Source of the DNA: Desulfuromonas sp.
GTDB lineage: Bacteria; Desulfobacterota; Desulfuromonadia; Desulfuromonadales; Desulfuromonadaceae
Direction of reading: 5' to 3'
DNA length: 64,000 nt
Assembly (NCBI GenBank): GCA_021162745.1
Contig: JAGGYC010000086.1
Span: 1-64,000 of the forward strand
Shown here: piece by piece, positions 16,127 to 39,394 of the stretch
How positions within the stretch are numbered: position 1 is the first letter of the stretch
Layout: every line of letters begins with the position of its first letter
Position numbers and translations under genes: made by a program
The notes under the pieces: generated by a model
Told to the model about the DNA's origin: nothing
Databases searched by the model: none
What the model saw: only the letters and a program-made list of their open reading frames with translations

Positions 16127-17560
16127 TTAAAGGCTGGACTGATCCTCGAATTGCGTCATGGCTTTATCGAGTTGTTTTTTTTTGATCTTTTCCAACAGGG
16201 TGGTGCGTTTCAGGTTGAGCAGTTCTGCAGCTTCTTTTTTATTGCCGCCGGTTTGCATCAGGGCTTGAAGGATCAATCGATCTTCAAATTCACTGACGCG
16301 TGAATTGAAATCCGTGGTGCCACCCTCGCTGGTTTGGCTGAGTAGTGATGGGGCGACCTCCTCGTGAAGATACTTTTCCGGCAGATCTCTGGGGGTGACG
16401 ATTTCGCCCATATGTAAAATCGACAACCGTTGCACAAGGTTTTCCAGTTCTCTTACATTGCCCGGCCACGGATAGCGGGTCAAGCAGGCCAGTGCTTGTT
16501 CGGAATAGCTGAATAGACTACGTTTTTTGCTGGTGCAAAAACGGCTGGTGAAAGTGTCGAGCAGCAGTGGAACATCGTCTCGCCGTTCTCGAAGTGGCGG
16601 AATTTGTAGCGGGATAACATTGAGACGATAATAGAGATCCTCGCGGAAGGTTCCTTTGGCAACCGCTTCATCCAGATTGCGGTGTGTTGCCGCGACGATC
16701 CGTACATCGACTTTAATACTTTTGACGCTACCGACGGGCTCAAATTCTTTTTCTTGAATAACCCTGAGCAGTTTGGCTTGAAGAGAAGGCTTCATGTCGC
16801 CTATCTCATCAAGGAACAGGGTGCCGCCCTCGGCATATTGCAATCGCCCTTTTTTGTTGTTGATTGCGCCGGTGAATGCCCCTTTTTCATAGCCGAACAG
16901 CTCGCTTTCGAGGAGTTCATCGGGGATTGCCGCGCAGTTGAGGGGAACAAAGTTTGCCATATGGCGTGGGCTGAGGCGATGAACCGCTTTGGCGACCAGT
17001 TCTTTGCCCGTGCCGCTTTCACCCTGGATTAAAATGGTGCTGTCGGCATCGTCGGCCAGACGTTTGATCAATGAAAACAGATGCTGCATCGACTCAGACC
17101 GACCGATGATGTGTGAAAAACCGTTTTCAACGGCGGGTTTCGGGCATGGGGCTGTCTGTTGTAACAGATGATACTGGAGAGCACGCCGGGCAATCTTAAT
17201 GGTTTCCTGCGCTGTTGTTGGAGCATGAAGATAGAAGTGAGCACCGGATTGGAGGATGTCGCGGGTGCTGATGACCGTTTCCTCTGGAATAAGCAGAACG
17301 GTCGATACATGGGGTGCCATGGTGCTTAACTGCTGACTGAGCTCAATGGCGCCGTTATCCGTTGCCGACAATTGGTTGAACACCAGCGAAACGGGGTGTT
17401 GCTGTATCAATTGAAGGGCCTGTGAAAGCGTGTCGGCTTCAATGAAATTGGCAGAAATTTCAGCGCGCAGCAGGTCATGGAGAGCTGCTCTTGTCGTGCT
17501 ATTGCTGTCAAACAAAAGAATGTGGGACACGGCTTTTCCAGAGAGTTGAACGGTTAACAC
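16127..17560 (-). CDS. Sigma54-dependent regulator with degenerate receiver (FleQ/FlrC-like)
   Basis: Enhancer-binding protein of 477 residues. Residues ~12-130 resemble a receiver, but the phospho-acceptor Asp is Asn (LVFNQL) and the Lys/Thr switch residues are missing, as in FleQ-type regulators. The AAA+ domain (~145-385) has Walker A GESGTGKE, the sigma54-contact motif GAFTGA, Walker [11 protein letters not shown] and the R-finger region [11 protein letters not shown] Fis-type helix-turn-helix lies at ~430-465 ([16 protein letters not shown]). The start is GTG 17560; a second GTG ten codons in is possible. As the last gene of the chemotaxis operon and near a sigma54 promoter at 27759, it is the likely master regulator of the flagellar genes, though the direct target is inferred. 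Confidence 0.85.
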
Positions 17561-17599: not shown

Positions 17600-19408
17600 T
17601 TAATGGCAAGTTGTTTTAAGGTTTGACGTGACTTTTTCGCGAATCTCTTTGTCGCTGGCCGGGGTGAGGATAATGTCTGTTGCCCCATAACGGACGGCTT
17701 TGATGACGTTGGTGCGGGTCCATTGTGGACCTGCAACGATTAATGGTTGTTGCGCCGGGATTTCAGAGCGTAATTTGATCATATGGGCAAAGCTCTGCTC
17801 ATCGACTTCTGACATTAGCAGAAAGGCAGCAATGATTGTGTATTGACGCAGAGTGTTGAAGCTGTCGCCAGTGGTGAGTTGGATGGCCGAGTGCTCGAAT
17901 GTGTCAAGGCTGTTGGCGAATAAGGCTGTCTGTTCTTGGTCGTCACCGACAATCACGACAATGGTTTCTTTTTCAGCAGCTTGTTGTTGCGGGATTTTGC
18001 CATCTATTGTTGCTTGTTGCTGTGGGGCTCTGTTTATGGAGGCTGCCGACGTTTCCCCTCCCGTTTGCGGGGGCGCCTTGGCTGCAGCGGTTGGTTCTTC
18101 TGGAACAGGTTCCCCCCAGCTGCTTTCGACCGGTCGTGGCGCGATATGTAAAATATCAACGGGGCATAGAAAACTGAGATCGCCTAAATCGTAAGCATCA
18201 CAACTCAGCGAGCCGGAGACCTGATAGTATTCTCCATCGGGAAAGGGCTCTATTGTATCGATTTTCACTTTTGTCGGTGTGAAAATCGTCATTTCCCCTT
18301 TTTGGAGGTGTAATTTGCGCGGATACATCTCATCGAAGTTTTGTACCAGGCCACCACTGACGATGTTGGCGACCTCGCCAAAGGCATCATCGATATCCTC
18401 GCTGAGCTCTCCTGTCTGGATTTGCTTTTCGATCTCAGCACTTGGCAGCATAATCATGGTACCGCCAAGGTAGATCGCATCTTTTAAGTCGGTGATGAAG
18501 TATCCGGTTCCCGAGCTATCGCCGGTGATAATCATTTCAGCGGCGATGGCTTTTTTGCCGGGGCGGGAAAAGTATTCCTGTTTGGAGACATAGCGGGTGG
18601 TGATATTCTCCAACGCAAGTTCAAGACCGAGCATGCCGCCGATCTCTTCGACGCATTGGCTGATCGAGGCCTTGAGAACGCGGTTTACAGTGGAACTGTC
18701 GATATAATCTGTTGGGGTTTCAGCTTCCGCAAGGGGGCTGTCGTCTTCGCCGGCCTGCGAGGGAACCTCTTCTCCATTCTCCTCGATCTCGGCGAGTGTT
18801 TCGGCAACGGGTTCCTCAACCGCTTCGGGCACAGGTTGCGTGCCGAGGCCTAACAGCTGAGCCGGGATGACAACCTCGAGATTTTTGAGCTCGAAACCTT
18901 CGAGAGACATGGCGCAGCTGGAGTGGAAATATTCACCGGGCGGGAAAGGTTGGTCGGCAGCTGGATCGAGTTGTGACGGGACAAAGTCAGCGACCGTCGT
19001 CCGTTTGAAGTGCAGTTTGTCCGGGTACATGTCGAGAAACACAGAGGTGTAAACGCCGGCAATAATATTGGCAACTTCGCCGTAGGCATCAGCCTCTTCG
19101 CCCTCAAAGGTGCGTAACTTGCAGTTTTCTTCTATTTGATCTTTGGGCAGCATGATCAGCGTACCACCCAGGACAACAGAGTCTTTCAGGTCGCTGATTA
19201 TAAATGCATCACCGGTCTGATCGCCGGAGACGACCATGGTCGAAAGGACAGATCGACCACGGCTGATAGCAAAAAGATCCTCCTTGGTGAGGACATTCAT
19301 GCGGTGCTCGGATAGCTTAATCGGCGACCCGAGAAGGGCACCGATTTCATCCGCCAGTTGTTCTAAAATGGTGTTGAAAACACTTTCAACAACAGCTGAG
19401 ACCGCCAC
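17600..19408 (-). CDS. Tandem CheX/CheC-like phosphatase domains fused to a pseudo-receiver
   Basis: A 602-residue cytoplasmic protein with three parts. Domain A (~1-190) has DAYGEVANIIAG; domain B (~235-415) has DAFGEVANIVSG. Both keep the Glu-x2-Asn pair that CheC/CheX/FliY phosphatases use to hydrolyse CheY-P. Each has an FIISDLKD or FITDLKD segment and a LGGT(L/M)IMLP segment, so B is a duplicate of A. A Pro/Ala/Glu-rich linker (~415-480) leads to a C-terminal receiver-like fold that keeps the acidic pair (GDDQEQ) but lacks the phospho-acceptor Asp and the conserved Lys. GTG 19408 is the start. It lies 8 bp after a stand-alone cheX. The likely role is CheY-P removal or a scaffold for it. 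I know of no exact named counterpart. Confidence 0.75.
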   Translation of the reverse strand: MAVSAVVESVFNTILEQLADEIGALLGSPIKLSEHRMNVLTKEDLFAISRGRSVLSTMVVSGDQTGDAFIISDLKDSVVLGGTLIMLPKDQIEENCKLRTFEGEEADAYGEVANIIAGVYTSVFLDMYPDKLHFKRTTVADFVPSQLDPAADQPFPPGEYFHSSCAMSLEGFELKNLEVVIPAQLLGLGTQPVPEAVEEPVAETLAEIEENGEEVPSQAGEDDSPLAEAETPTDYIDSSTVNRVLKASISQCVEEIGGMLGLELALENITTRYVSKQEYFSRPGKKAIAAEMIITGDSSGTGYFITDLKDAIYLGGTMIMLPSAEIEKQIQTGELSEDIDDAFGEVANIVSGGLVQNFDEMYPRKLHLQKGEMTIFTPTKVKIDTIEPFPDGEYYQVSGSLSCDAYDLGDLSFLCPVDILHIAPRPVESSWGEPVPEEPTAAAKAPPQTGGETSAASINRAPQQQATIDGKIPQQQAAEKETIVVIVGDDQEQTALFANSLDTFEHSAIQLTTGDSFNTLRQYTIIAAFLLMSEVDEQSFAHMIKLRSEIPAQQPLIVAGPQWTRTNVIKAVRYGATDIILTPASDKEIREKVTSNLKTTCH

Positions 19409-19416
19409 AGATGTAC

Positions 19417-19896
19417 CTACTTAGGAGTTTTTAGTTTCAGTTCGACAAGAAATTCACCTTCATCAAGATAGAAGGGAACCGTTGTCCAGGCAGCATCGTC
19501 CATTCCGCTGACACGGTAGGAGCGACCAGCAAGAACCGTTGGTATGGCAAGGTTAACCTGAGTGCCAAGTTCAGTAAAGCCATCTTTGATTCCACCGAGA
19601 ATCATGTTGGCGATTTCACCGATCGTATCTTTGACGTCTGCATCGACTTCGTAAACATCTATTCCCAGTAATGCACTGGTGATGGCAAAGGCGATCTCTT
19701 CCGGGCAGTGGATCGTCAGCATCCCCTGCACATCGCCGGCAAAACCAAGCATCGCCGAAATACTGTTTTTGAAGCTGTAAACTTTTTCAGACAGGCAAAT
19801 TCCGGGTGTCAGCGGCATCATTAACATGGTGTCGAAAACAGCCTGAGTACTGTCAATTATTTGTTGCTGAAGATCTAAATCCACACAAATCTCCAT
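19417..19896 (-). CDS. cheX: CheX-family CheY-P phosphatase
   Basis: A 159-residue single-domain protein. The central helix DTIGEIANMILGGIK carries the Glu-x2-Asn catalytic pair of CheX. The flanking strands (GMLTIHCPEE and GEFLVELKLK) give the CheX fold, which normally works as a dimer. It is 51% or so similar by eye to the next cheX upstream (20016) in layout, for example PGxxLxxxVxSFK and GMLxIHxP; I have not aligned them. It probably acts on one of the two CheY proteins of the operon. Confidence 0.82.
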   Translation of the reverse strand: MEICVDLDLQQQIIDSTQAVFDTMLMMPLTPGICLSEKVYSFKNSISAMLGFAGDVQGMLTIHCPEEIAFAITSALLGIDVYEVDADVKDTIGEIANMILGGIKDGFTELGTQVNLAIPTVLAGRSYRVSGMDDAAWTTVPFYLDEGEFLVELKLKTPK

Positions 19897-19960
19897 TTCT
19901 GGAAGAGGTGATACTGAACAAGGTGCTCTGATACTGCAGCCTGCTGTGGTACGAATTTAA

Positions 19961-20002
19961 ATGCAGCCATCCTGCTTTCTGTTTGGTGCAGAATGGCTAC
20001 AT
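19961..20002. promoter_or_regulatory. Hairpin between two cheX genes
   Basis: ATGCAGCCATCCTGC (19961-19975) pairs with GCAGAATGGCTACAT (19988-20002), 13 of 15 positions, with a 12-nt loop. It lies in the 119-bp gap between the cheX genes. No T-run follows on the minus strand, so mRNA stabilisation or partial attenuation is more likely than termination. Confidence 0.55.
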
Positions 20003-20015
20003 CTGTGGTGTTGAA

Positions 20016-20474
20016 TCAGCAACTCTTAAGCTGTAGTTCGACCAAAAACTCGCCGGAATCAACGGTAAAGGGAACAACAACCCAGTCTGCATCGGCGACA
20101 CAGTCCATGCTGTATTCTTCACCGTGGATACAGGAAGGGATTGATACCGTCACATTTTTCCCCGCCTCATCCAGAACCATTTTGATGTTGCCGGCCAGCA
20201 TGTTTGCTAATTCGCCGATGGCATCGGTGACATCCTCATTCACTTCATCAACGTCCATGCCGAGAAAACTACTGGTAATTGCTTTGGCAACGGCATCGGG
20301 GGTGTGGATAGCCAGCATCCCCTGGCATGCGCCTGCAAGACCGATAACGCCGGAAACAGAGCATTTGAAGCTGTGAACACTTTTTTCAAGAGGATCACCT
20401 GGGGTGATATCCAGCATGATCATGGTCTCAAAGATCTCTATTGTTGCTTCGGTGATGTTTTTTTGTAGATCCAA
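20016..20474 (-). CDS. cheX: CheX-family CheY-P phosphatase
   Basis: A 152-residue CheX-fold protein with the catalytic helix DAIGELANMLAGNIK (Glu-x2-Asn). The opening half, with TPGDPLEKSVHSFKCSVSGVIG, and the last strand GEFLVELQLKSC parallel the neighbour at 19417, so the two are probably an old tandem duplication. AGGAGG-like sequence (minus strand of CCTCCT at 20481-20486) precedes the ATG. It lies between cheY (20539) and the second cheX. Confidence 0.82.
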   Translation of the reverse strand: MDLQKNITEATIEIFETMIMLDITPGDPLEKSVHSFKCSVSGVIGLAGACQGMLAIHTPDAVAKAITSSFLGMDVDEVNEDVTDAIGELANMLAGNIKMVLDEAGKNVTVSIPSCIHGEEYSMDCVADADWVVVPFTVDSGEFLVELQLKSC

Positions 20475-20538
20475 ACCGTTCCTCCTGGTTGATTAATTGA
20501 TGAGCTGATTACCTTTTATGTAATCGAGGTCATCTGAA

Positions 20539-20910
20539 CTAAATCAGCCCACCAATTACTTCCTGGATTTTGTCAGGAGTAAACGGCTTTTTGATGTTGC
20601 CCGCAGCGCCCAGTGCTTTGGCTTCACCGATAATGTCTGATCCGCCTTCGGTGGTGATCATGACCACGGGAATGGCTGCAATGGCAGCAATCTCTTTTTT
20701 CTGGCGCAGAAACTCGATGCCATCCATGTTCGGCATATTGATATCGCTTAAAATCATATCAACGGTTTCCTTTTCAAGAAGATTAAGCGCTTCCTGCCCG
20801 TCTGCGGCTTCGAGGATTTCATCAAAATCCAGTCCGGCCTGACGCAGGGAGCGGGAGACAATTTTCCTCATTGTGCTTGAATCGTCAATGACTAAAACTC
20901 TTTTACCCAT
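20539..20910 (-). CDS. cheY: CheY response regulator
   Basis: A 123-residue single-domain receiver with all key residues: acid pocket VIDDSST, phospho-acceptor Asp in SDINMPNMDG (about residue 56), Thr in MITTEGG and Lys in IKKPFTP. It would be phosphorylated by CheA and bind FliM at the motor, or act as a phosphate sink. The sequence 64 bp to the next gene contains no obvious terminator. Confidence 0.93.
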   Translation of the reverse strand: MGKRVLVIDDSSTMRKIVSRSLRQAGLDFDEILEAADGQEALNLLEKETVDMILSDINMPNMDGIEFLRQKKEIAAIAAIPVVMITTEGGSDIIGEAKALGAAGNIKKPFTPDKIQEVIGGLI

Positions 20911-20937
20911 GGGGATTTTCCTTTCTGTACAATCTGT

Positions 20938-21429
20938 TTAATTGTTGTTGAGTATAATTGAAAGATCCGTATCGTCGGCCATTGTGATCTCGACGATGAG
21001 CGGATATTCTTCAGCCAAGTAGTAATAAGTAAAACGTTTTGCTTCTGGCGCATCATCCACAACCTCGGTCAGTTCCGGCAGATTCAGTGAAAAGGTTTGA
21101 TCTGCGGGTAGGGTCTCGGTCATGAATCGCCCTGCCAGGGTATTGAGTATTTCGGCAAGCAGATCACCGATCAGCTGATCGGTGATCTCTTCTCGATCCA
21201 TGATATACATGGTTTCGACAATCTGCACCAGTAATTCCCGCGACATTTCGAGTCTCATCTCAAGAAGGACAGGTTTTGTGATAAGCAGGTTGGCGTTGAG
21301 TCGCTCTCCCTCAATCTCCGTACACTCCTGCTTGGAGCTGCCATCAACGCTGATAAAGGCCATGTTTTCGAGGGTTTCTTCGAGAACGCAGGTTATTTTT
21401 TCCTGTAAAAACTGGCTGTGTTCGTTCAT
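20938..21429 (-). CDS. Divergent CheX-like phosphatase
   Basis: A 163-residue protein flanked by two cheY genes. The helix DLLAEILNTLAGRFM keeps Glu-x2-Asn, and the preceding MSRELLVQIVETMY and the final strand YPLIVEITMAD fit the CheC/CheX fold. It is clearly more distant from the other two cheX genes. The second half has an acidic TEVVDDAPEAKRF segment. It begins one base after the end of the second cheY gene and would serve that receiver, but this is inference. Confidence 0.7.
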   Translation of the reverse strand: MNEHSQFLQEKITCVLEETLENMAFISVDGSSKQECTEIEGERLNANLLITKPVLLEMRLEMSRELLVQIVETMYIMDREEITDQLIGDLLAEILNTLAGRFMTETLPADQTFSLNLPELTEVVDDAPEAKRFTYYYLAEEYPLIVEITMADDTDLSIILNNN

Positions 21430-21430
21430 G

Positions 21431-21814
21431 TCAGACCTCCTCTTTGTTCAGTAGGGGGGTCAACACGTCACTGAGGATGGCAGGATTGACAGGTTTGTTG
21501 ATAACCGCAAAGGCGCCCATTTCCAGCAATTGTTCCGATTTTGCCTGGTTCCCGGCGCTGGTAATGATAAGCACGGGCAGATCGACCAGTTTAGGGCTGG
21601 CTTTAACCCAGCGCAGCAGGGCTTCGCCATCCATAACCGGCATGTTGAGATCACTCACCAGCAGGTCAGTTGCTTGCTGTTTGACAAGGGCAAGACCCTC
21701 TTTGCCGTTTTCAGCTTCGGCAAATTCGGCATCTGCCAGACCGATGATTTCCAGGCAGCGTTTGATCATCATGCGGGCTGTTCCTGAGTCGTCGGCGATC
21801 ACTATCCGTTTCAT
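21431..21814 (-). CDS. CheY-like response regulator
   Basis: A 127-residue receiver with complete phosphorylation site: ADDSGT, Asp in VSDLNMPVMDG, Thr/Ser in IITSAGN and Lys in INKPVNP. Its start overlaps the HDOD gene stop as ATGA, so the two are translationally coupled. It differs enough from the cheY at 20539 to suggest a separate target or a sink role. Confidence 0.9.
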   Translation of the reverse strand: MKRIVIADDSGTARMMIKRCLEIIGLADAEFAEAENGKEGLALVKQQATDLLVSDLNMPVMDGEALLRWVKASPKLVDLPVLIITSAGNQAKSEQLLEMGAFAVINKPVNPAILSDVLTPLLNKEEV

Positions 21815-22689
21815 ATCTGTGTCTCCTTTGTGTCAGTCATCGCGTTGTTAAGTGTGTCAAAGGATTCGTTGACTTCAAGCATTACCAGTGCGATTTGTTC
21901 TGACGTCAGGTCAAAAAAGTCGGTGTAGTTTTTATCTAGGTGATATTGCAGGGAATCTGAAGCTTGACTGCCACACATCATGGCAATGATACAGGCCAGG
22001 TGAACCGCATAAACGAGCAATTGATGTTCTTGCGGCGCGTCTGCCGGGTTGTGATGGTAGCGGATGGCCATCTGCAGTGACTCGGGCAGGTCCCAATTCT
22101 TTGCCAGCTCAAAGCCCGCTTCGGTATGGTCGATACCAACAAGTTCCCGTTCACCCGCCAGGTAATCGCCAACTTCATGGCTGTCAATGCCGATCAGGAC
22201 ATCGTTGGCGCTGTTGGATAAAAAATCGGACAGCACCGCTTTGCCGACGGCATGGAGAATCCCGGCGGTAAAGGCGACATCTGCATTGAGGGGCTGGGTG
22301 GCATAGCGGGCAATTTCACGTGCCGCGATTGCCGTGCGTAAATCATGATTCCATAGTTCACTTTTGGGTCCTTCGTAGCCGGCCAGTTCTTTATGGAATA
22401 ACGCTGAAGCGCTATCGCCCAGGGCAATACCGGCGATGGTTCGATCGCCCAGGTAGGAGATGGCCCGGTCGATTGTGCTGACTTGATAGGCCAGGCCATA
22501 GGCGACAGAGTTGACGATTTTTAAAACCCTGGCGGTGAGGGCGGAATCGCATTTGACGATATCGATCACATCTTGAATGTCATGGTCTTCCCGGGCCGTA
22601 ACCTGCAGCAGTTGTGATGCGCTGGGGGAGAGTAATGGTACGTTTTGAATGGCCTTAAGAATCTCTTCTCTGGTGGCACGTTGTTTCAT
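21811..22689 (-). CDS. HDOD-domain signalling protein
   Basis: A 292-residue protein with one HDOD domain over ~10-210: LPLLSP-like opening NVPLLSPSASQLLQV, CDSALTARVLKIVNSVAYGL, ISYLGDRTIAGIAL and GILHAVGKAVL. The family lacks the catalytic HD pair and acts as a signalling adaptor. ATG 22689 (minus) follows AGGGGAG and is preferred over longer frames that run into cheD. HDOD proteins inside che operons occur in several deltaproteobacteria. The direct partner is not known; the coupled CheY is the best candidate. Confidence 0.85.
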   Translation of the reverse strand: MKQRATREEILKAIQNVPLLSPSASQLLQVTAREDHDIQDVIDIVKCDSALTARVLKIVNSVAYGLAYQVSTIDRAISYLGDRTIAGIALGDSASALFHKELAGYEGPKSELWNHDLRTAIAAREIARYATQPLNADVAFTAGILHAVGKAVLSDFLSNSANDVLIGIDSHEVGDYLAGERELVGIDHTEAGFELAKNWDLPESLQMAIRYHHNPADAPQEHQLLVYAVHLACIIAMMCGSQASDSLQYHLDKNYTDFFDLTSEQIALVMLEVNESFDTLNNAMTDTKETQI

Positions 22690-22702: not shown

Positions 22703-23191
22703 TTATAGTTTCCAGTCGCCGCGCCCGGGAGAGGAGATGGTAACCTCCCCTGTGGCGAGGGAAACTGATACGGTACGACTGTAGGTTGCGCCAAGATCTT
22801 CGGCAACAGGGCCCAAGGCATATTTCCAGAGTGTTTTTTTTACGGCAAGTGCGTTGCGTTTTCCGATATTGAAGGTGTTGTTGGGGTCCATGATCTTGGC
22901 CCCTCCCGCCAGCTTGACAATGAATCCGCGGCCGCGGGGGTCACAACCCATACCGGCCATCTGTTGCAGCAGGGCGGGGATGCCGGTGTCGGCAAAATAA
23001 CCGGGGCGGGTCTTGACCTTCTCCGGATTGATTTTTGATTCGGGTAAGGCAACGTGAACCATGCCGACGGTGCGAGTTTTAGGGCACATCAGAATGACGG
23101 CAATACAGGAACCGAGAGCAAATGTTTTAACAATGTCAGCGGAAGATTTGGAGGCGCCGAATTCGCCAACGCCAAGAATCAAATTGCTCAT
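22703..23191 (-). CDS. cheD: CheD, chemoreceptor glutamine deamidase
   Basis: A 162-residue CheD. Catalytic Cys in ALGSCIAV (about residue 29) and His in GMVHVALPES are in place, with the KLAGGAKIM and NIGKRNA motifs. CheD deamidates receptor glutamines and in many species is regulated by CheC-type phosphatases, of which this operon has several. It starts 4 bp after cheB. Confidence 0.92.
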   Translation of the reverse strand: MSNLILGVGEFGASKSSADIVKTFALGSCIAVILMCPKTRTVGMVHVALPESKINPEKVKTRPGYFADTGIPALLQQMAGMGCDPRGRGFIVKLAGGAKIMDPNNTFNIGKRNALAVKKTLWKYALGPVAEDLGATYSRTVSVSLATGEVTISSPGRGDWKL

Positions 23192-23195: not shown

Positions 23196-24251
23196 TTATT
23201 TCTCCGTCAGCAGTGAGATCACTTGAGATGCAATGCGGTCGATGGGGAACAGTTTTTCAGCTCCCCCTTTTTCGTAAGCAACTTTGGGCATACCAAAAAC
23301 AACAGAGGTTGCTTCGTCCTGGGCAATGTTGCGTGCGCCGGCTTCGCGCATGGCCAGCATCCCTTTTGCGCCGTCTGAACCCATGCCGGTGAGCATGACA
23401 CCGACGGCGTTACGGCCAACATGCTTGGCGACGGAATGCATCATCACGTCAACCGAGGGGCAGTGGCCGCTGACTTTTTCTCCTGCGGCACATTTAACCT
23501 GATAGATCCCACCAGAGCGGACAACCTCCATCTGTAGCGCTCCGGGAGCAACGAGGATAAGCCCTGGACGGATACGGTCGCCGTGCTCAGCTTCCTTGAC
23601 TTCCATGGCGCAGAGCTGGTTGAGTCGTTCAGAGAACATTTTTGTAAAGCCTGGCGGCATGTGTTGGACGATCACAACGCCGGGCATGGTGGCCGGGAAC
23701 TGCATTACCACTTTTTTTATCGCTTCGGTGCCACCGGTTGAGGCGCCGATGGCAACCACCTTGTCGGTTGATTCAGCCAATGCCCGTGTGGTCCCGTTGG
23801 CGATGGAACGGCGCATCTCGACCCGTTTGTTTTTCCAATGGGAAACATTGGCTGTCGAGGCGATTTTCACCTTGGCGCGGAGTTCCATCAGCATGGCGTT
23901 GAGGCCTTGGGCTACATTGGTGGTCGGCTTGGTGACAAAGTCGACAGCGCCCGCTTCCAGGGCTTCCATGGTGATCTGCTTGCCCTTTTGCGTCAAGGAA
24001 CTGACCATGACGATGGGGAGAGGGTATTGAGGCATCAGTTTGCGCAAAAACTCCACACCGTCCATGCGTGGCATTTCGACATCAAGGGTGAGAACGTCCG
24101 GTTTGAGTTGAACAATCTTGTCCCGGGCCGCGTAGGGGTCAGCGGCAGAGCCAACCACGGTGATCCCCGGATCCAGGGCCAGACCGTTGGTCAAAATCTG
24201 GCGTACCAGGGCGGAATCATCAACAACAAGGACACGAATCTGTTTGGCCAT
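23196..24251 (-). CDS. cheB: CheB, chemoreceptor methylesterase / deamidase
   Basis: A 351-residue protein with an N-terminal receiver (VVDDSAL, Asp in LDVEMPRMDG, VSSLTQKG, VTKP) and a C-terminal methylesterase. The Ser-His-Asp triad appears as GASTGGTE, QHMPPGFT and MGSDGAKG. CheA phosphorylation relieves receiver inhibition. It abuts cheR with no gap. Confidence 0.95.
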   Translation of the reverse strand: MAKQIRVLVVDDSALVRQILTNGLALDPGITVVGSAADPYAARDKIVQLKPDVLTLDVEMPRMDGVEFLRKLMPQYPLPIVMVSSLTQKGKQITMEALEAGAVDFVTKPTTNVAQGLNAMLMELRAKVKIASTANVSHWKNKRVEMRRSIANGTTRALAESTDKVVAIGASTGGTEAIKKVVMQFPATMPGVVIVQHMPPGFTKMFSERLNQLCAMEVKEAEHGDRIRPGLILVAPGALQMEVVRSGGIYQVKCAAGEKVSGHCPSVDVMMHSVAKHVGRNAVGVMLTGMGSDGAKGMLAMREAGARNIAQDEATSVVFGMPKVAYEKGGAEKLFPIDRIASQVISLLTEK

Positions 24252-25136
24252 TTATGTGGTTCCTTTTTGGTAGGCGGCTGGCATCAGGTAGCGGAAGAAC
24301 TGGCTGTCACGGCCAAGGGTTTCCGAGTGGCCAATAAAAAAGTAGCCATTGGGTTCCATACTGTGATGGAACCGCTGCACCAACGCATTACGGGTTTGCT
24401 GATCGAAATAGATCATGACATTGCGACAGAAAATGATCTGAAACGGTTTTTTGAACGGAAATGTTTTATTCATTAAGTTGAAGCGGCGAAAGGTGACCTC
24501 GTCGCGAATTTTATCCACCACTTGCATGCGTCCATCGGCAAGGCGGGTGAAGTACTTGCGTTGCAGGGCCTCCGGCAATGAGGCAACCTTGTCTGCGGCA
24601 TAGATCCCCTGGCTTGCGGTCGATAAAACCCGCTCCGAAATGTCGGTGGCTAAGATCCCGGCGTCCCAATGGCCGTATTGTGATCCCAGATATTCATGCA
24701 TGAGCATCAGCAGGGTGTAGGGTTCTTCGCCGGTTGAACAGCCGGCACACCAGACGCGCAAATCCTTACGGTTTTGCTTTTTTAATTGCTCGCAGATGGC
24801 GGGTAATGCTGTGTTTGAGAAATAGTCAAAATGGTCTTTTTCGCGATTGAAATAAGTATAGTTGGTCGAGACCAGATTGATCAGGTCGCTGACCGCTTTA
24901 CCCGTTGTGTCGGTGTCAAGATGGTTGTAATAGTCCTGAAACGTTCCCATCTTGTTGGAACGCAACATCTTTTGTAGCCGTCCCACCAGCAATGAGCGCT
25001 TCTCATCGGTCAGATTGATGCCGAAGCGGTCATAAATCAGTCGCCGCAAGGCATCGAACTCCTTATCGGTGATCGTCATCATGGTGGCATTACGCGTGAT
25101 CGTTTGAGTCAAACTGTTTTTATCCGTTGAGGTCAT
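24252..25136 (-). CDS. cheR: CheR, chemoreceptor methyltransferase
   Basis: SAM-dependent methylation of receptor glutamates. The 294-residue protein has the CheR N-terminal helical domain (DKEFDALRRLIYDRFGI) and a C-terminal Rossmann methyltransferase domain with WCAGCSTGEEPYT, ATDISERVL and FCRNVMIYFD. An in-frame ATG 18 codons in (25082) could be the real start. It lies between cheA (24-bp gap) and cheB (adjacent). Confidence 0.94.
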   Translation of the reverse strand: MTSTDKNSLTQTITRNATMMTITDKEFDALRRLIYDRFGINLTDEKRSLLVGRLQKMLRSNKMGTFQDYYNHLDTDTTGKAVSDLINLVSTNYTYFNREKDHFDYFSNTALPAICEQLKKQNRKDLRVWCAGCSTGEEPYTLLMLMHEYLGSQYGHWDAGILATDISERVLSTASQGIYAADKVASLPEALQRKYFTRLADGRMQVVDKIRDEVTFRRFNLMNKTFPFKKPFQIIFCRNVMIYFDQQTRNALVQRFHHSMEPNGYFFIGHSETLGRDSQFFRYLMPAAYQKGTT

Positions 25137-25160: not shown

Positions 25161-27428
25161 CTATTTTAAATCAACGAGATTGCCGACGTCGAGGATGAGG
25201 CTGACATCGCCGTTGCCGAGGATAGTGCAGCCTGAACAGCCGCGGACGTTGCCGATGTATTCAGAGAGCCCTTTGATGACGGTCTGTTGTTGACCGAGGA
25301 TTTCGTCCACCATCAGACAAACACTGCGGCCCTGATATTCGAGAACGATCAAGATCGAATCAATCAGATCCGAGTGATCTGGGGGAGTGTCCAACAGCTC
25401 GTGAAGACGGACCACCGGGAAGAAGCTCTCCCGTACCCGTACCAGTTCCTCCGCGTCCGGTGTAATGGTGACGGCCTCGGGTTGCGGGCGGAACGCCTCC
25501 TTGATGGATAAAATCGGTACGATGCAGCGGGAGTCACCCACCCGTACCAGCATGCCATCGATAATCGCCAGGGTCAGAGGGATGCGTAGCTTGATGATTG
25601 TCCCCTGGCCGGGGACACTGTCGACATCGACCTTACCCTTGATCTTTTCAAGATTCTGTTTGACGACATCCATGCCGACGCCGCGACCGGAGATGTCGGT
25701 AATTTTTTCTGCGGTGGAGAATCCCGGCTGAAAGATCATATTGTAGATCTCTTTGTCGGTAAGGTCCGAGCCATCGCCCTCAATGAGGCCATTTTGAATC
25801 GCCTTAGCGAGGATTTTCTCTTTGTTTAATCCGCGACCATCATCTTCAAGGGTGATCCAGACTTCCCCCTCCTCATGGCAGGCACTGAGGTGAACCGTTC
25901 CTGTTTCGCTTTTGCCGGCGGCAATCCGTTCCTCGGGGGGCTCGAGGCCATGGTCCATGGAATTACGCAAGATGTGGACCAGGGGGTCGGTGATGGTTTC
26001 AATGACGGTCTTGTCGACCTCTGTCCCTTCTCCGGTCAATTTCAGGTCCACTTTTTTACCCGACTTGACTGAAAGGTCGTGAACCAGGCGGATCATACGG
26101 CGGAACAATCCCGAAACCGGGATCATGCGGATAATCATCGCCATCTCTTGAAGCTCTCGAACCAGCTTGCCCATCTGCTGAGCTGCTTTATTGAAACTTT
26201 CCAGTTCCATGCCGTCGAGATCCGGGTTGTGGATGAGCATGTTTTCGGCAATAACCAGTTCGCCAATCAGGTTGATCAAGTTGTCGAGCTTCTCCAGGTC
26301 GACACGGATATCCTGGCGCTTGATTGCCGCTGCCTTGGGTTTTTTCTTTGGTTTTGGCGTTGCTTTCTTGACCTGGTTCTGAGACGAGAGCGCTTGGCTG
26401 ATCTGCTCTTCAGAGGCCTTGCCCATGTCAACCAACAGGTCGCCAAGGGGTTTTTTCTGCTGGTTGAGGGCCTGTTCGATCGTCTCTTTTTCGACCACCC
26501 CTTTTTCGATCAGTACTTCGCCGAGACGGGGGGCGGGCAGGGTTTTCAGCGCTTCAATGTGGGCGTCGATCTCTTCGATCAAATCCTTACCGTTTTCAAC
26601 CAGAGAGCTCAGCCCGTCCTTCAGGGCATCCACGGCTAGAAGCATGGTTTCAAAGGGGTTGTCTGTGGCAAATGATCCGCCGCTTTTGATAATGTCGAGG
26701 ACGTTTTCAATCTGATGGCTGAGCTTTTCAAGGTTCATGTAGCCAAAGAAACCGCTATTGCCCTTAAAACTGTGCATGCTGCGGAAAATTGTCGCAACAT
26801 GGTCTTGGCTTTCAGGTTCTTTTTCCCAGGCGAGTAAGCCCTGCTCTGTCGTTTCGAGCAATTCATCCGCTTCCTGAACAAAACGTTCGACCATATCAGG
26901 AGTGATCTCGAGAGTCAGGTCGTCTGTAACTTCAATTTGCGCAGGGTCAAGCTCTTGCGGGGTTTCGCCTTCAGGACTGACTGTTTGTTTTGCATCGGTT
27001 TCAGCTTCTTCCGCTGGCGTGGCTGGAGCCTCCATGGCCTGGTGGAACTGGTCGGCCATCACCTTGCCCTGTTCCTCCACCCCCTCATCATTGAAGTTTT
27101 CGTCAACCCAGTCGAGAGCTTCCTTGGTGAAGTCGCAGCATTCGCATAGCAGGGTAACGTGCTCAGGGAGTAAAGTCATTTTTCCTGAACGTACCATGTC
27201 GAGCAAGCTCTCGGCCGCGTGAGCCACACTGGTGATATGGTTGAATTCAAGGAAACCGGCACTGCCTTTCATGGAATGGAACAGGCGAAAGACGGCATTG
27301 ATGGTTTCGTTGTCCGTGTTTTGCCCAAGCTCGATGATCGTCGGTTCGAGTTGCTCGATCATATCGCGGCTTTCCTGGACAAACTCCTGGATGATTTCTA
27401 TTTGATCACTGCTCAGCTCATCTGTCAT
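25161..27428 (-). CDS. cheA: CheA histidine kinase with two Hpt domains and a MshEN-like module
   Basis: A 755-residue chemotaxis kinase. Hpt1 has LFHSMKGSAGF (His51). Hpt2 has SMHSFKGNSGF (His219). Both phospho-histidines are present. Residues 301-350 hold two repeats, RLGEVLIEKG and PLGDLLVDMG, each followed by a helix ending in ALxxQ, like the MshEN fold; they sit where the P2 CheY-binding domain usually is. Dimerisation (~375-440), HATPase (N-box HILRNSMDHGLE, DDGRGLN, GRGVGMDVVK) and CheW-like regulatory domain (~620-755) follow. It opens the che operon. No cheW gene lies nearby, so the receptor complex must use one encoded elsewhere. Confidence 0.94.
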   Translation of the reverse strand: MTDELSSDQIEIIQEFVQESRDMIEQLEPTIIELGQNTDNETINAVFRLFHSMKGSAGFLEFNHITSVAHAAESLLDMVRSGKMTLLPEHVTLLCECCDFTKEALDWVDENFNDEGVEEQGKVMADQFHQAMEAPATPAEEAETDAKQTVSPEGETPQELDPAQIEVTDDLTLEITPDMVERFVQEADELLETTEQGLLAWEKEPESQDHVATIFRSMHSFKGNSGFFGYMNLEKLSHQIENVLDIIKSGGSFATDNPFETMLLAVDALKDGLSSLVENGKDLIEEIDAHIEALKTLPAPRLGEVLIEKGVVEKETIEQALNQQKKPLGDLLVDMGKASEEQISQALSSQNQVKKATPKPKKKPKAAAIKRQDIRVDLEKLDNLINLIGELVIAENMLIHNPDLDGMELESFNKAAQQMGKLVRELQEMAMIIRMIPVSGLFRRMIRLVHDLSVKSGKKVDLKLTGEGTEVDKTVIETITDPLVHILRNSMDHGLEPPEERIAAGKSETGTVHLSACHEEGEVWITLEDDGRGLNKEKILAKAIQNGLIEGDGSDLTDKEIYNMIFQPGFSTAEKITDISGRGVGMDVVKQNLEKIKGKVDVDSVPGQGTIIKLRIPLTLAIIDGMLVRVGDSRCIVPILSIKEAFRPQPEAVTITPDAEELVRVRESFFPVVRLHELLDTPPDHSDLIDSILIVLEYQGRSVCLMVDEILGQQQTVIKGLSEYIGNVRGCSGCTILGNGDVSLILDVGNLVDLK

Positions 27429-30265: not shown

Positions 30266-30276
30266 GAGGATAGATG

Positions 30277-30687
30277 ATGGCAAATTCAGGAATCATGGAT
30301 CAGGCCTCACTGGTACTGAAAAAGTCACTTGACTTACGCCTGCGCAACCAACAGATCATCGCCGCCAATGTCGCCAATGCGCAGACGCCGGGTTATCAGG
30401 CACGCCGTTTTCAATTTGAAGATGCGCTGCAGCAGGCTGTAACGGGGAGTGGGTACGATGTTGTCACCACCCATCCACGGCATATATCCAGCCATGGTGG
30501 TTCCATTGGCAACGTGATGGGAACTATTCGCGAGGTGCGCGATAGTAGTGGTATCGGCGATGGCAATACCGTCGATGTCGATCAGGAGATGGTTCAATTG
30601 GCCGAAAATCAGATTATGTACGAGGCCACAGCCCAGCTGCTGAGTAAAAAAATGGCTATTATCAAGTACGTGGTGCAGGGTAACTAG
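30277..30687 (+). CDS. flgB: Flagellar proximal rod protein FlgB
   Basis: A ~136-residue rod subunit, exported by the flagellar type III system. It shows the conserved N-terminal ANVANAQTPGYQARRF motif and a C-terminal coiled coil ending LLSKKMAIIKYVVQGN. ATG 30277 is spaced six bases from GAGAGGA; ATG 30274 also fits. It is followed 10 bp later by flgC. Confidence 0.95.
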   Translation: MANSGIMDQASLVLKKSLDLRLRNQQIIAANVANAQTPGYQARRFQFEDALQQAVTGSGYDVVTTHPRHISSHGGSIGNVMGTIREVRDSSGIGDGNTVDVDQEMVQLAENQIMYEATAQLLSKKMAIIKYVVQGN

Positions 30688-30697
30688 GGGGTAGGTT

Positions 30698-31129
30698 ATG
30701 GATATCTTCACATCGTTAAATATCAGTGCCTCGGCGCTCAAAGCGCAACGTATTCGACTGGATACCATTAGTTCTAATATGGCCAACGCCGAAACGACCC
30801 GCACGCCCGAGGGTGGGCCTTATAAAAGGAAGATGGTGGTGTTTGAACCTCAGCAGATGTCGTTTTCAGACCACTTGTCGGCCCGGGAGAAGAAAGCGCT
30901 AAGCGGAGTGCGGGTGAGTCAAATCGCCGTCGATAATAGTGAGCCTCGACTGGTGTTTGACCCTGCCCATCCTGATGCCAACAACGAGGGTTATGTTGCT
31001 ATGCCGGACATTGATATCCTTAAAGAGACGACAGATATGATGTTGGCGACGCGTGCGTACGAGGCCAATATCACGACGATAAAATCAGCGAAACGGATGG
31101 CGCTTAAAGCCCTTGAAATCGGAAAATAG
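30698..31129 (+). CDS. flgC: Flagellar rod protein FlgC
   Basis: A 143-residue rod subunit. The N-terminal SSNMANAETTRTPEGGPYKRK and the C-terminal VDILKETTDMMLATRAYEANITTIKSAKRM-type helix (here DIDILKETTDMML) are typical. It sits in the standard flgB-flgC-fliE order. Confidence 0.96.
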   Translation: MDIFTSLNISASALKAQRIRLDTISSNMANAETTRTPEGGPYKRKMVVFEPQQMSFSDHLSAREKKALSGVRVSQIAVDNSEPRLVFDPAHPDANNEGYVAMPDIDILKETTDMMLATRAYEANITTIKSAKRMALKALEIGK

Positions 31130-31142
31130 CGAGGTGTAGACC

Positions 31143-31436
31143 ATGAAAGATATCTCCATTGATACTCATCTGAAATCGATGATGCCAACATTGAGCGCAC
31201 CGCAGAGTCGCCCGGACAGTGGTTTTGCTGATTTGCTTACCAAAGCAATCGATGAAACGAATGATGCGCAGTTGACGGCGGATAAAGCGGTGACAGATTT
31301 GAGTACAGGCAAAGCAGATAACCTCCACGAAGTGATGTTGTCCATGGAGGAAGCCGATATCTCCATGCGTATGTTGGTTCAAATGAGAAATAAGGTTGTT
31401 GAAGCCTATCAGGAAATTATTCGGATGCAGGTGTGA
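31143..31436 (+). CDS. fliE: Flagellar hook-basal body protein FliE
   Basis: A 97-residue adaptor between the MS ring and the rod. The C-terminus RNKVVEAYQEIIRMQV and the central GKADNLHEVMLSMEEADISMRMLVQ are the family signature. Confidence 0.95.
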   Translation: MKDISIDTHLKSMMPTLSAPQSRPDSGFADLLTKAIDETNDAQLTADKAVTDLSTGKADNLHEVMLSMEEADISMRMLVQMRNKVVEAYQEIIRMQV

Positions 31437-31494
31437 CAGCTTGTTTTTTGGTTGGCAAGACGTAATGGGAATTTGGGCGGAGAGATAAATACAC

Positions 31495-33066
31495 ATGGCT
31501 GATGACATCAGGGGAAATGCTTTTGCCGCAATGAAGAACTGGTCTCTGTCACGCAAGATCAGTCTTGTGGCAGTCGCGCTGTTTTCATTGACGCTGTTTG
31601 CGCTGATCATACTGCAGGCACGGCATACGGATTATCAGTTGTTGTTTGCCAACTTGTCGGAAAACGACGCGTCGGCGATTGTCACCTGGCTAAAAGATCG
31701 TAAGATGCCCTACGAATTGCAGGGCGGAGGACGGTCGATCTATGTCTCGTCTGAAAATGTGTATGAAACGCGTCTAGAACTCGCTGGTTCCGGACTGCCA
31801 CAGGGCGGCGGGATCGGGTTTGAAATTTTTGACAAGCAAAGTTTGGGTATAACCGACTTTGTCCAGAAGGTGAACTATTTAAGGGCCATGCAGGGGGAGC
31901 TGTCGCGAACCGTTGCCTCCCTCTCCCCGGTTGCCGCAGCGCGCGTGCATCTGGCATTGCCGCAAAAGCGACTGTTCAAGAGTGAGCAGCAACATGTGAC
32001 GGCTTCAATCATTGTCAAACTAGTGCCCGGTCTGAAGCTCAAAGAGTCTCAGGTGCAGGGGATTGTTAATCTTGTCGCCGGCAGTGTTGAAGGGTTGGAG
32101 TCTGAATACGTCACGGTGGTTGATGCTTCGGGGACGGTGCTGTCGAAAAAACAGGAGGAGGGGCTGAGTGGGCCGATGACTCCGGGCATGCTGCAATATC
32201 AGCGAGCCGTCGAGCGCCAGATGGAGAACCGTGCCCAAGCGATGCTTGATCGAGCGTTAGGAATGGCAAATTCTCTGGTGAAAGTGACTGCCTTGCTGGA
32301 TTTTGCTCAGGTGGAAAAACTCGAAGAGCTGTACGATCCGAAAAGTGCTGTGCCGCGCAGTGAACAGCTGCAGGAACAGAAGGATGACAGTGGGAGTGCT
32401 GGCGGTGGCGTCCCTGGTGTGCAGTCAAATCTGGGCGCAGGAGGACCTGGCGGTGGCGGCAGCGCAGCAAACAGTAGCAGCAGTGCAGAAACAACCAATT
32501 ATGAAATCAGTAAGGTGGTAAACCGGACGGTTGCACCGGTCGGAACAATTCAACATCTGTCTGTTTCTGTATTGGTCGCAGATACAATGTCAAAGGAATC
32601 CGGGGAAGATGGGGAAGAGATCTCGAAGTTGGTTCCTCGTACCGAGCAAGAGTTGCGGACCATTGAAAAAATGATTCAGACTGCATTGGGGATTGATAAA
32701 ACACGCGGCGATCAGCTGAATGTGGTCTCAATGCCTTTTGCGGATGAATTTTATACAACGCCGGAACTGCCTGAACCGACGTTAAAGGATAACCTTTATA
32801 CCTATATGCCGTTGGTTAAGTATTTCCTTGCTGGTTTAGGGGCGCTGCTGATGTATTTTCTGCTGGTCCGACCGACGATAAAGACCCTACGCGAAGAGGC
32901 GACCGTCCAGCACTTTAAAACCGTCAAGGAATTGGAGTCAGAAATGGCCTCAGGGCGAAGCTCGACGGTGCAACTCGATCCTACCGAACAGTTGCGGCAG
33001 AATATACTTAAAGCCGAACATTCACCTTCAGAGGTGATCCGAACTTGGATGAATGATGAAGAATAA
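31495..33066 (+). CDS. fliF: Flagellar MS-ring protein FliF
   Basis: A 523-residue inner-membrane ring protein. TM1 is at about residues 22-42 (ISLVAVALFSLTLFALIIL) and TM2 near 435-455 (LVKYFLAGLGALLMYFLLV). The periplasmic YscJ-like domain has NLSENDASAIVTWL and RVHLALPQKRLF. A Gly/Ser-rich low-complexity stretch (~295-335) lies in the periplasmic loop. The C-terminal tail (RTWMNDEE) binds FliG. Confidence 0.96.
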   Translation: MADDIRGNAFAAMKNWSLSRKISLVAVALFSLTLFALIILQARHTDYQLLFANLSENDASAIVTWLKDRKMPYELQGGGRSIYVSSENVYETRLELAGSGLPQGGGIGFEIFDKQSLGITDFVQKVNYLRAMQGELSRTVASLSPVAAARVHLALPQKRLFKSEQQHVTASIIVKLVPGLKLKESQVQGIVNLVAGSVEGLESEYVTVVDASGTVLSKKQEEGLSGPMTPGMLQYQRAVERQMENRAQAMLDRALGMANSLVKVTALLDFAQVEKLEELYDPKSAVPRSEQLQEQKDDSGSAGGGVPGVQSNLGAGGPGGGGSAANSSSSAETTNYEISKVVNRTVAPVGTIQHLSVSVLVADTMSKESGEDGEEISKLVPRTEQELRTIEKMIQTALGIDKTRGDQLNVVSMPFADEFYTTPELPEPTLKDNLYTYMPLVKYFLAGLGALLMYFLLVRPTIKTLREEATVQHFKTVKELESEMASGRSSTVQLDPTEQLRQNILKAEHSPSEVIRTWMNDEE

Positions 33067-33077
33067 CGGAGATATGT

Positions 33078-34091
33078 GTGGACGCATTACAGTTTAACCG
33101 TATGTCAGGCTTGGAAAAAGCCGCTGTTTTGCTGATGTGTCTTGGAGAATCGGCGACAGCGAAGGTTTTTTCGGATCTGGAAGAAAATGAGATCAGATTA
33201 CTGACGCGTATTATGATCGGCATTGATCATATCTCGGCGGAATTAGCGAATGATGTCATGGCCGAGTTCCAGCATGCTCAGAAGAAAAACCCCGGCATGT
33301 ATATCAAGAGTGAAGAATTTGTCCGTAATGCCATTGCCGGCAGCGGCGATGATCGGGGTGAACAGCTGGTGAATGAGATTCTCAGTGGTGTTGAATCACG
33401 TCCACTGGAAACGATTGCGACCATGAATCCACGCATGGTCGCCAGTTTGCTGGAAAACGAGCATCCGCAGACCTTGGCACTGATTCTGTCCACCCAGCGC
33501 TCGGACCATACCAGTAAGGTGTTAAAGTTTTTGCCCGATGAGGTGGCGGGTGATGTGATGTATCGCATTGCCAAGATTGATAAGGTTGCGCCTGAGGTCC
33601 TTGCTCAGATTGAAGAAGCATTGCGTCGCGAGATCGGTGGTGTCAGCAAGAAAGAGCAGCAGGACGTTGGTGGTGTCGACAAGGTGGTCGATATCCTTGG
33701 GCGTATGGAAAAAGGTTCCGACCGGATGATTGTCGATAGTATTGAAGTTACCGATCCTGAGTTGGCAGAGGCCATCCGCAAGAAGATGTTCACCTTTGGA
33801 GATCTGGTTGGTATCGATGGCCGGGCGATGCAGATGATCCTGCGCGAGATCAACAACGATACGTTGACGATGGCACTTAAAACGGCTACGGACGAATTGA
33901 AAAATATGATTTTTGGTAATATTTCCAATCGAGCTGCTGAGATGATTCAGGAAGATCTTGAGGCGATGGGTCCGGTACGGTTATCGGACGTTGAGGCGAT
34001 GCAGCAGACGATTGTCAAACTCGCTCTGAAGCTGGAAGAAGAGGGGCAGATTGTGATACCAGGACGTGGGGCCGGCGATGTCCTCGTCTAA
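33078..34091 (+). CDS. fliG: Flagellar motor switch protein FliG
   Basis: A 337-residue rotor protein. It has the N-terminal KAAVLLMCLGE, the middle EHPQTLALILS (EHPQ motif) and the charged C-terminal torque helix region (MFTFGDLVGIDGRAMQMILREI). The start is GTG 33078. FliH begins inside its last codons. Confidence 0.97.
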   Translation: MDALQFNRMSGLEKAAVLLMCLGESATAKVFSDLEENEIRLLTRIMIGIDHISAELANDVMAEFQHAQKKNPGMYIKSEEFVRNAIAGSGDDRGEQLVNEILSGVESRPLETIATMNPRMVASLLENEHPQTLALILSTQRSDHTSKVLKFLPDEVAGDVMYRIAKIDKVAPEVLAQIEEALRREIGGVSKKEQQDVGGVDKVVDILGRMEKGSDRMIVDSIEVTDPELAEAIRKKMFTFGDLVGIDGRAMQMILREINNDTLTMALKTATDELKNMIFGNISNRAAEMIQEDLEAMGPVRLSDVEAMQQTIVKLALKLEEEGQIVIPGRGAGDVLV

Positions 34092-34773
34092 GATTATCCG
34101 CGATGCGGACGTTGTCTGTCACTCTGTGGTGATGTCCAGCCTTGAGGATGTCCATGGGTTTCAGGCCGGCAGTTTTGTTGTTGCGGACGGGGCCGCTGAG
34201 GTTGTTGTCAAAACGACTACTCAACAAGACGAGCAGATTGATCAGGGGGGCGTTGTTGAGCCTGATATTAATGTTGAAGCATTGCGTCAGCAGGCGTTTG
34301 CCGAAGGGCGTCAGGCAGGATTTGATGAGGCGGAAGCACAGCTCGGCACCTTGACGCAGTCTCTGGCTGCGGCCTGTACTGAACTGAGCACTCTGCGGCA
34401 AAAAATGCTCGAACGCAGTCGTGAGGATATGCTGCGGCTGGTGTTGGCGGTGGCTGAGCGGATTGTCCTGGTTGAGCTTGTCGTTCATCGTGATGCCGTT
34501 AATCGTACGGTTCAGCAGGCCATTCAGGCCGCAGTTAGCGCTGAGGAGTTTCATATCAAGATCAACCCTGACGACATGCAGATGGTTCAGGAGCATAAAC
34601 CGCTGTTTATCGCTAGCTTGAGCGGCTTGAGCAATATTGAGTTTGTTCCTGATCCAACGGTGACCGCAGGAGGTTGTATGCTTGAATCGCCCAAGGGGCG
34701 GGTAGACGCGACCATCGAGGCTCAACTCGATGAGATTGCCCGGAACTTACGCGAGGCGCTAGAGGAAGGCTGA
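34078..34773 (+). CDS. fliH: Flagellar export ATPase regulator FliH
   Basis: About 231 residues. It has an Ala/Gln/Glu-rich helical middle (ALRQQAFAEGRQAGFDEAEA) and a C-terminal V-ATPase E-like domain (RLVLAVAERIVLVEL, INPDDMQMV, GGCMLESPKGRVDATIEAQL). It binds and restrains FliI. ATG 34078 overlaps the end of fliG by 14 bp; its stop overlaps the fliI start. Confidence 0.93.
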   Translation: MSSSKIIRDADVVCHSVVMSSLEDVHGFQAGSFVVADGAAEVVVKTTTQQDEQIDQGGVVEPDINVEALRQQAFAEGRQAGFDEAEAQLGTLTQSLAAACTELSTLRQKMLERSREDMLRLVLAVAERIVLVELVVHRDAVNRTVQQAIQAAVSAEEFHIKINPDDMQMVQEHKPLFIASLSGLSNIEFVPDPTVTAGGCMLESPKGRVDATIEAQLDEIARNLREALEEG

Positions 34774-36098
34774 TGGCAAACCTCGAATCACGGATAAGGG
34801 ACTGTAAAACCCTGCGGGTATGGGGCAAGGTCACCAAGATCGTTGGATTGGTGGTCGAAGGCTACTGTCCAACCGCCTCGGTCGGTACGCTGTGCGAAAT
34901 TCAACCCCTCGACGGCAGCGAGGCCGTTGCTGCTGAAGTGGTTGGTTTTCGCGAAGGGCTGGCCTTGCTGATGCCCCTGGGTGAACTGCGTGGATTGGGT
35001 CCCGGCAGCCTTATTCGGGTGCTGCGCAGTAGTGCCAGTATGGCCGTGGGGGAAGCTCTGCTCGGCCGGGTTGTCGATGCCATGGGCCATCCTATTGATA
35101 GTTTGCCTGAGCCTGTTCTTGATCGTGAGATGCCGGTCTATTCATTGCCGCCGGGACCGATGCAACGGCGTAAGATCGCCGAACCACTGGATCTGGGCGT
35201 GCGGGCGATTAATGGCTTGCTCACCTGCGGGCGAGGCCAGCGGATGGGGATCATGGCCGGTTCAGGCGTCGGTAAAAGTGTTCTGCTTGGGACCATGGCG
35301 AAACATTCGCAGTCTGATATAAACGTGATTGCCCTGATTGGCGAGCGTGGACGTGAGGTGCGCGAATTTATTGAGCGCGATCTCGGCGAAGAGGGTTTGG
35401 CCCGTTCCGTGGTGCTGGTTGCGACCTCCGACCAATCACCGTTGTTGAGGATGCGTGGTGCTTTTGTCGCCACCACCCTGGCCGAATATTTCTGTCAGCA
35501 GGGGCACAATGTGCTGTTGATGATGGACTCAGTAACCCGCTTCGCCATGGCGATGCGTGAGGTTGGGCTTGCCATTGGCGAGCCACCAACCACCAAAGGT
35601 TATACCCCGTCGGTCTTTGCTACCCTGCCCAAGTTGCTGGAACGAGCCGGTAGCTTTAAAGGACAGGGCAGCATCACCGGTCTTTATACCGTGCTTGTCG
35701 AAGGTGATGATATGAACGAGCCTATCGCCGACGCTGTCCGTTCCATCCTCGATGGTCACATCGTTTTATCACGAGCTCTGGCGGCCAAAAATCATTATCC
35801 CTGTATCGATATCCTCCACTCTGCCAGCCGCGTTATGCGCGATATTGTGACCGATGAGCATGTTCAGTGTGGCGCGAAGATCCGTGAAATTCTGGCCACC
35901 CACAAAGAAGCCGAGGATCTGATCAATATCGGCGCCTATGTTTCCGGAAGCAATGATAAAATCGATTATGCGATTTCGAGAATTGACGCTGTTAATGAGT
36001 TTTTGTGTCAGGGAATGAATGAGCGTGATGATCTCGCTGGAACGTTGGCGGCGATGAACGCATTGGTCCTCGATCGCCGTGCTGAGCACCGCGAATAA
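34773..36098 (+). CDS. fliI: Flagellum-specific ATPase FliI
   Basis: A 441-residue F1-beta-like ATPase of the export apparatus. Walker A is AGSGVGKSVLLG; Walker B region is VLLMMDSVTRFA; ERGREVREFIE and the PPTTKGYTPSVFA segment are conserved. The ATG overlaps the fliH stop (TGATG). Confidence 0.97.
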   Translation: MANLESRIRDCKTLRVWGKVTKIVGLVVEGYCPTASVGTLCEIQPLDGSEAVAAEVVGFREGLALLMPLGELRGLGPGSLIRVLRSSASMAVGEALLGRVVDAMGHPIDSLPEPVLDREMPVYSLPPGPMQRRKIAEPLDLGVRAINGLLTCGRGQRMGIMAGSGVGKSVLLGTMAKHSQSDINVIALIGERGREVREFIERDLGEEGLARSVVLVATSDQSPLLRMRGAFVATTLAEYFCQQGHNVLLMMDSVTRFAMAMREVGLAIGEPPTTKGYTPSVFATLPKLLERAGSFKGQGSITGLYTVLVEGDDMNEPIADAVRSILDGHIVLSRALAAKNHYPCIDILHSASRVMRDIVTDEHVQCGAKIREILATHKEAEDLINIGAYVSGSNDKIDYAISRIDAVNEFLCQGMNERDDLAGTLAAMNALVLDRRAEHRE

Positions 36099-37185: not shown

Positions 37186-37204
37186 ACGAAAGGAGGTGGG
37201 GTAG

Positions 37205-39382: not shown

Positions 39383-39394
39383 GGAGGAGATGGC

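Follow-up and report, generated by a model that had tools for sequence, protein, structure and literature searches.

A conserved flagellum-linked chemotaxis operon in Desulfuromonas with five CheC/CheX-fold domains, two of them fused to a pseudo-receiver

Models of chemotaxis usually include one eraser of the phosphate carried by CheY (CheY-P). The window analysed here, a stretch of 64,000 nucleotides from a Desulfuromonas sp. contig (JAGGYC010000086.1, assembly GCA_021162745.1), contains a conserved operon, linked to the flagellum, in which two CheYs are accompanied by five intact eraser domains, which makes it a case for why cells need several, and lets one ask whether the erasure of CheY-P is specific to a CheY or to a place. 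All genes of the operon are on the minus strand, and their positions, taken from the ORF translations, are those of the original prediction. The operon and its neighbours are as follows.

16127..17560, minus strand: sigma-54 activator adjoining the operon (Pfam Sigma54_activat, 244.3 bits; synteny)
17600..19408, minus strand: CheXXR, a fused protein of 602 aa with domains D1 and D2 and a pseudo-receiver (AF2, Foldseek, invariant residues)
19417..19896, minus strand: CheX3, a stand-alone CheX with GEIAN (Pfam CheX, 85.9 bits; E94/N97 invariant in 41/41)
20016..20474, minus strand: CheX2, a stand-alone CheX with GELAN (Pfam CheX, 91 bits; E88/N91 invariant)
20539..20910, minus strand: CheYb, a canonical CheY (Pfam Response_reg, 93.7 bits; DD, D56 and K108 invariant in 57/57)
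20938..21429, minus strand: CheXdiv, a divergent CheX with AEILN (Pfam CheX, 32.3 bits; AF2; E93/N96 invariant in 55/55)
21431..21814, minus strand: CheYa, a canonical CheY (Pfam Response_reg, 79 bits; D9, D55 and K107 invariant in 56/56)
21811..22689, minus strand: HDOD-domain protein (Pfam HDOD, 160.5 bits)
22703..23191, minus strand: CheD (Pfam CheD, 90.8 bits)
23196..24251, minus strand: CheB, receiver and methylesterase (ORF translation, syntenic homologues)
24252..25136, minus strand: CheR (ORF translation, syntenic homologues)
25161..27428, minus strand: CheA, with two Hpt stretches and dimerisation, ATPase and CheW domains (Pfam)
30274..53253, plus strand: flagellar gene block, divergent from the operon (Pfam on sampled genes)

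Among the sampled genes of the flagellar block, Pfam identified a rod protein, FliF, FliG, FliK, FliM, FlhA and a ParA-type ATPase. The sigma-54 activator is on the same strand as the operon in the window and, by synteny, on the opposite strand in most other families; read by eye, its receiver is seemingly degenerate, with VFNQLSATD at the expected phospho-Asp, and resembles FleQ/FlrA-type flagellar regulators. In CheA, LGE/LGDxLxxxG...EQAL-like repeats, a motif that Pfam leaves unnamed, lie between the Hpt stretches and the kinase core.

As the original prediction had proposed by eye, there are five domains of CheC/CheX fold in the region 17600-21814, of which CheXXR contains two and the other three are stand-alone proteins. 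With the Pfam CheX cut-off at 27 bits, the matches were strong for CheX2 and CheX3 and close to the cut-off for CheXdiv and CheXXR (28.2 bits across two stretches), and for the latter two proteins the fold was found with AF2 models of single chains and Foldseek. The CheXdiv model (46-row alignment) had a pLDDT of 90.6, and its significant PDB matches were exclusively CheX, CheC, FliY and FliM, including 3h4y (E 2.5e-8), CheX 6vpw and the CheX-CheY complex 3hzh. In the CheXXR model (pLDDT 86, 39-row alignment), both D1 (aa 1-190) and D2 (aa 235-425) have the CheC/FliY/FliM/CheX fold, and they are followed by linkers of low AF2 confidence (~aa 193-230 and ~aa 430-478). Since a sequence search of the 602-aa protein against solved structures returned weak receiver matches only, its phosphatase folds rest on the models and the weak Pfam matches. 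The best Foldseek matches of D1 and D2 were FliY, CheC and the FliM middle domain, and with ~190 aa each the fused domains are predicted to be, by fold, at least as near to these as to CheX.

The Glu-x2-Asn pair, first read in the five domains as GEVAN, GEVAN, GEIAN, GELAN and AEILN, was kept without exception across the homologues aligned for each domain, with row counts that include the window's own sequence: E111/N114 of D1 and E345/N348 of D2 in 39/39 rows each, and the pair of CheX2 in 62/62 readable rows (63 rows, one gapped). The same holds for fused homologues with a single domain (23/23 rows, one of which is the window's D2), and in the CheXdiv family (46 rows, 163 residues) the catalytic Glu and Asn are two of the eight invariant columns. 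The first helix of D1 and D2, where CheC and FliY carry a first active site, has an EIG motif from which the Asn that such a site would need is missing; E21 of D1 is invariant, position 24 is A/S/V/G/T in 39/39 rows, and Asn occurs at position 258 of D2 in no aligned row. Neither domain thus has a further, CheC-type Glu-x2-Asn in its first helix, and D1 and D2 have one intact site each. An artefact of motif reading was ruled out by the predicted folds and the conservation.

These proteins share with CheX of T. maritima and B. burgdorferi the CheC/CheX fold, the Glu-x2-Asn helix and the che operon context; however, the operon of the window has several such proteins and a tandem pair fused to a pseudo-receiver, and where Gly usually precedes the catalytic Glu, CheXdiv has Ala and the position varies among its relatives. 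CheX is a homodimer with one active site per chain; CheC has two per chain, unlike the fused domains, and CheXXR differs from FliY in ending in a receiver fold instead of a C-terminal FliN-like domain.

Both stand-alone CheYs were correctly recognized as such, with DD, phospho-Asp and Lys all kept and one D-to-E exchange in the acidic pair of CheYa. The C-terminus of CheXXR (aa 480-600) has the receiver fold in the AF2 model, and Foldseek matched it to 2qxy, a response regulator of T. maritima, with E 5.9e-6. The position of the Lys is T/M/L/S/I in 39/39 rows, and beta3 has an acidic residue in none of the 39 rows; in the profile alignment to CheYb, the phospho-Asp is opposite E534, a mixed column with D in 7/39, so that no register yields a conserved Asp. 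The part described beforehand as receiver-like and lacking phospho-Asp and Lys is therefore a genuine pseudo-receiver, that is, a receiver fold without the Lys or a conserved phospho-Asp. In two families (f22 and f24) the Lys is still present in the fused receiver, which suggests a stepwise decay from a true receiver.

The conservation of the pseudo-receiver, calculated by secondary structure with surface and core pooled, was 0.73-0.90 in alpha3-beta4-alpha4-beta5 versus 0.39-0.44 in alpha1-beta2-alpha2, and W563, T564, R565, V568, A571, Y574, G575, D578, I579 and P583 are invariant. Judged from the alignment, selection appears to maintain the beta4-alpha4-beta5 face (WTR...DI..P). The pseudo-receiver of FrzS docks SgmX via its alpha3-beta4-alpha4 surface (PMC12632262), and because the conserved face of CheXXR overlaps this docking face, a role in docking or sensing is preferred here. 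In family f61, a CBS pair occupies the receiver slot of a fused CheX-like protein (L147:10020-11183), whose gene adjoins CheX, CheY and CheA, as expected for a swappable regulatory domain; the conserved side and this swap both fit a docking or regulatory domain, and we infer such a role for the pseudo-receiver. Like FrzS-type pseudo-receivers, it has a receiver fold without the phosphotransfer residues; unlike them, it is fused to phosphatase-type domains of the kind that acts on receivers. The main text of a 2025 review of pseudo-receivers, in which their activation mechanisms are termed a mystery, mentions neither CheX nor CheC (PMC12632262), and the fused protein provides a pseudo-receiver role that can be tested.

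The distribution was followed in 136 genomes of the order and in a sample of the phylum; one scan of genome contigs for close relatives, which alone reached beyond the phylum, found only three. A match to CheXXR was present in 85/136 genomes of the order (weak match only in G134), and the gene order of the operon was kept in nearly all loci read. An oddity local to one genome was ruled out by this synteny, and the CheX-CheX-REC architecture is not local but order-wide. FliM and CheXXR were both present in 78 of the 136 genomes and both absent in 49, with CheXXR only in 7 and FliM only in 2 (Fisher p ~9e-27, a value that ignores relatedness). The fused family recurs in further families and other classes of the phylum sample, as a single-domain CheX-pseudoREC beside CheYb and CheX (f22, f24), in the double CheX-CheX-pseudoREC form (f38, f121) or with a weaker receiver (f50). 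As one part of the overall explanation favored below, this is probably the operon for flagellar chemotaxis in Desulfuromonas-type bacteria, in which the part that erases CheY phosphate has been expanded.

The FliM of the window (43986-44972) and, for the most part, those of other genomes that encode the fused protein have far lower Pfam FliM scores than most flagellated relatives (E ~1e-20 to 1e-41; ~1e-47 to 1e-53 in f22/f24). Within f50 and f61, the members with the fused protein have a low-scoring FliM, and those without it include standard FliM (E ~1e-55 to 1e-60); the pattern suggests that the che module moves along with the flagellum. In the gene trees, the CheX2 and CheX3 genes of f38 and f121, which belong to other classes (L132-L137), nest within clades of the Desulfuromonas order, the pattern that a transfer of the module would leave.

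A comparative study from 2021 reported a che cluster adjoining the flagellar genes in two Desulfuromonas strains, AOP6 and 2873, with cheA, cheB, cheR, cheC, cheD and cheX, and termed it a unique cluster type (PMC8235581). From its content and position, this cluster would be the same operon; that study gives gene counts only, and reports no CheX-CheX-pseudo-receiver fusion, catalytic conservation or linked modules. The question of novelty attached to the architecture thus has a divided answer, with the arrangement common and conserved across the order and a flagellum-linked cluster with cheX and cheC listed in 2021, whereas the searchable literature yielded no description of CheX in fusion with a receiver or pseudo-receiver.

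Two modules emerge from the gene content, one with CheYa and CheXdiv (module A) and another with CheYb, one or two CheX and CheX-(CheX)-pseudoREC (module B). Of 54 operons in which CheB and CheD could be seen, 51 have CheYa together with CheXdiv and three have neither; the one never occurs without the other, and the CheB tree indicates two independent co-losses. Outside the order and in other classes the two are also jointly absent, with CheYb still accompanied by CheX and the fused protein. The wider core consists of CheYb, the fused protein and one or more stand-alone CheX; the few exceptions are located at contig ends or in L136. The idea that different phosphatases match different receivers thus gains circumstantial backing, as the linked retention of CheYa and CheXdiv fits dedicated phosphatases; the pairing is read from gene neighbourhood and the two co-losses, a number too small for a phylogenetic test to reach significance. 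The numbers of stand-alone CheX and of fused domains were two and two in 35 operons, one and one in 15, and mixed in four, a suggestive coupling that comes from very few independent changes. Partners of the CheC/CheX domains might also include the receiver of CheB or CheD, and CheX2 and CheX3 may represent plain redundancy or a heterodimer.

CheX and CheC act by placing Glu and Asn in the active site of phosphorylated CheY, driving hydrolysis. Here it is proposed, with somewhat better than even confidence, that the operon encodes active CheY-P phosphatases divided between the two CheYs, with a pseudo-receiver that would serve for docking or regulation; its recruiting or locking of phosphatases, as suggested in the original prediction, is a conjecture. 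Each phosphatase domain would insert its Glu and Asn into the active site of CheY-P and cause hydrolysis, with CheXdiv serving CheYa, and CheX2, CheX3 and the fused protein serving CheYb. The pseudo-receiver would accept no phosphate, and its beta4-alpha4-beta5 side would dock the double phosphatase on a partner or sense an input, by which the erasure of CheYb-P could be confined to a particular place or condition.

A sharper form of this explanation, whose confidence overlaps with that of the general one and which by itself has perhaps one chance in four, is that the fused protein is a phosphatase localised at the motor or pole, analogous to FliY, whose CheC-like domains would erase CheY-P at the switch or pole and in which the pseudo-receiver replaces the FliN-like anchor. 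The Foldseek matches of D1 and D2 to FliY, CheC and the FliM middle domain, the tight link to FliM and to the block of flagellar genes, and the work of the FrzS pseudo-receiver in polar recruitment (PMC12632262) speak for it; however, CheXXR has no FliN-like or known motor-binding domain. It is rather unlikely that the fused protein is chiefly a scaffold or buffer, with D1 and D2 binding CheYb-P or CheX2/CheX3 heterodimers and a CheY-mimicking pseudo-receiver occupying or capping the phosphatases and so limiting dephosphorylation instead of carrying it out. A receiver fold could bind CheX domains, and the mostly matching numbers of stand-alone and fused domains are in line with it, but those numbers reflect few independent changes, and the invariant Glu and Asn of D1 and D2, and also of the single-domain forms, argue for catalysis. 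A redundant expansion, in which near-equivalent CheX enzymes raise the phosphatase dose unmatched to particular CheYs, is similarly improbable, for while CheX2 and CheX3 are clear paralogues and a sixth CheX exists elsewhere in the genome, each family is deeply and separately conserved, a single CheX2/CheX3 split is maintained over the order, and CheYa is retained linked with CheXdiv.

In the tree of D1 and D2 the domains group by family and not by position, being sisters in f7, f8, f9, f16 and f38/f121 (in f1 the tree was unresolved), and forcing all D1 together cost 109.8 log units (AU p 5e-5). A single ancient tandem duplication was ruled out by this AU test, with CheX2/CheX3 as internal control; in the same operons these ancient paralogues show one clean split, kept across the order, so the pattern of D1 and D2 is unlikely to be an artefact of the method. 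The tandem either originated repeatedly from single-domain ancestors or its repeats were homogenised in each lineage, and single-domain fused forms exist today alongside the tandem ones. The grouping by lineage suggests an advantage in having a pair of active sites on a single docking domain. A more specific version, less likely than not, is that of matched erasers, with one CheX dedicated to CheYa and, for CheYb, a bivalent phosphatase that docks by its pseudo-receiver; selection would have rebuilt the tandem of the latter in at least five separate in-frame duplications, starting from an ancestor with one domain. Elsewhere in the genome, the sixth CheX (L002:1366-1836) resembles CheX2 closely, with 222 bits, and L153:1294-2109 encodes a two-motif CheC.
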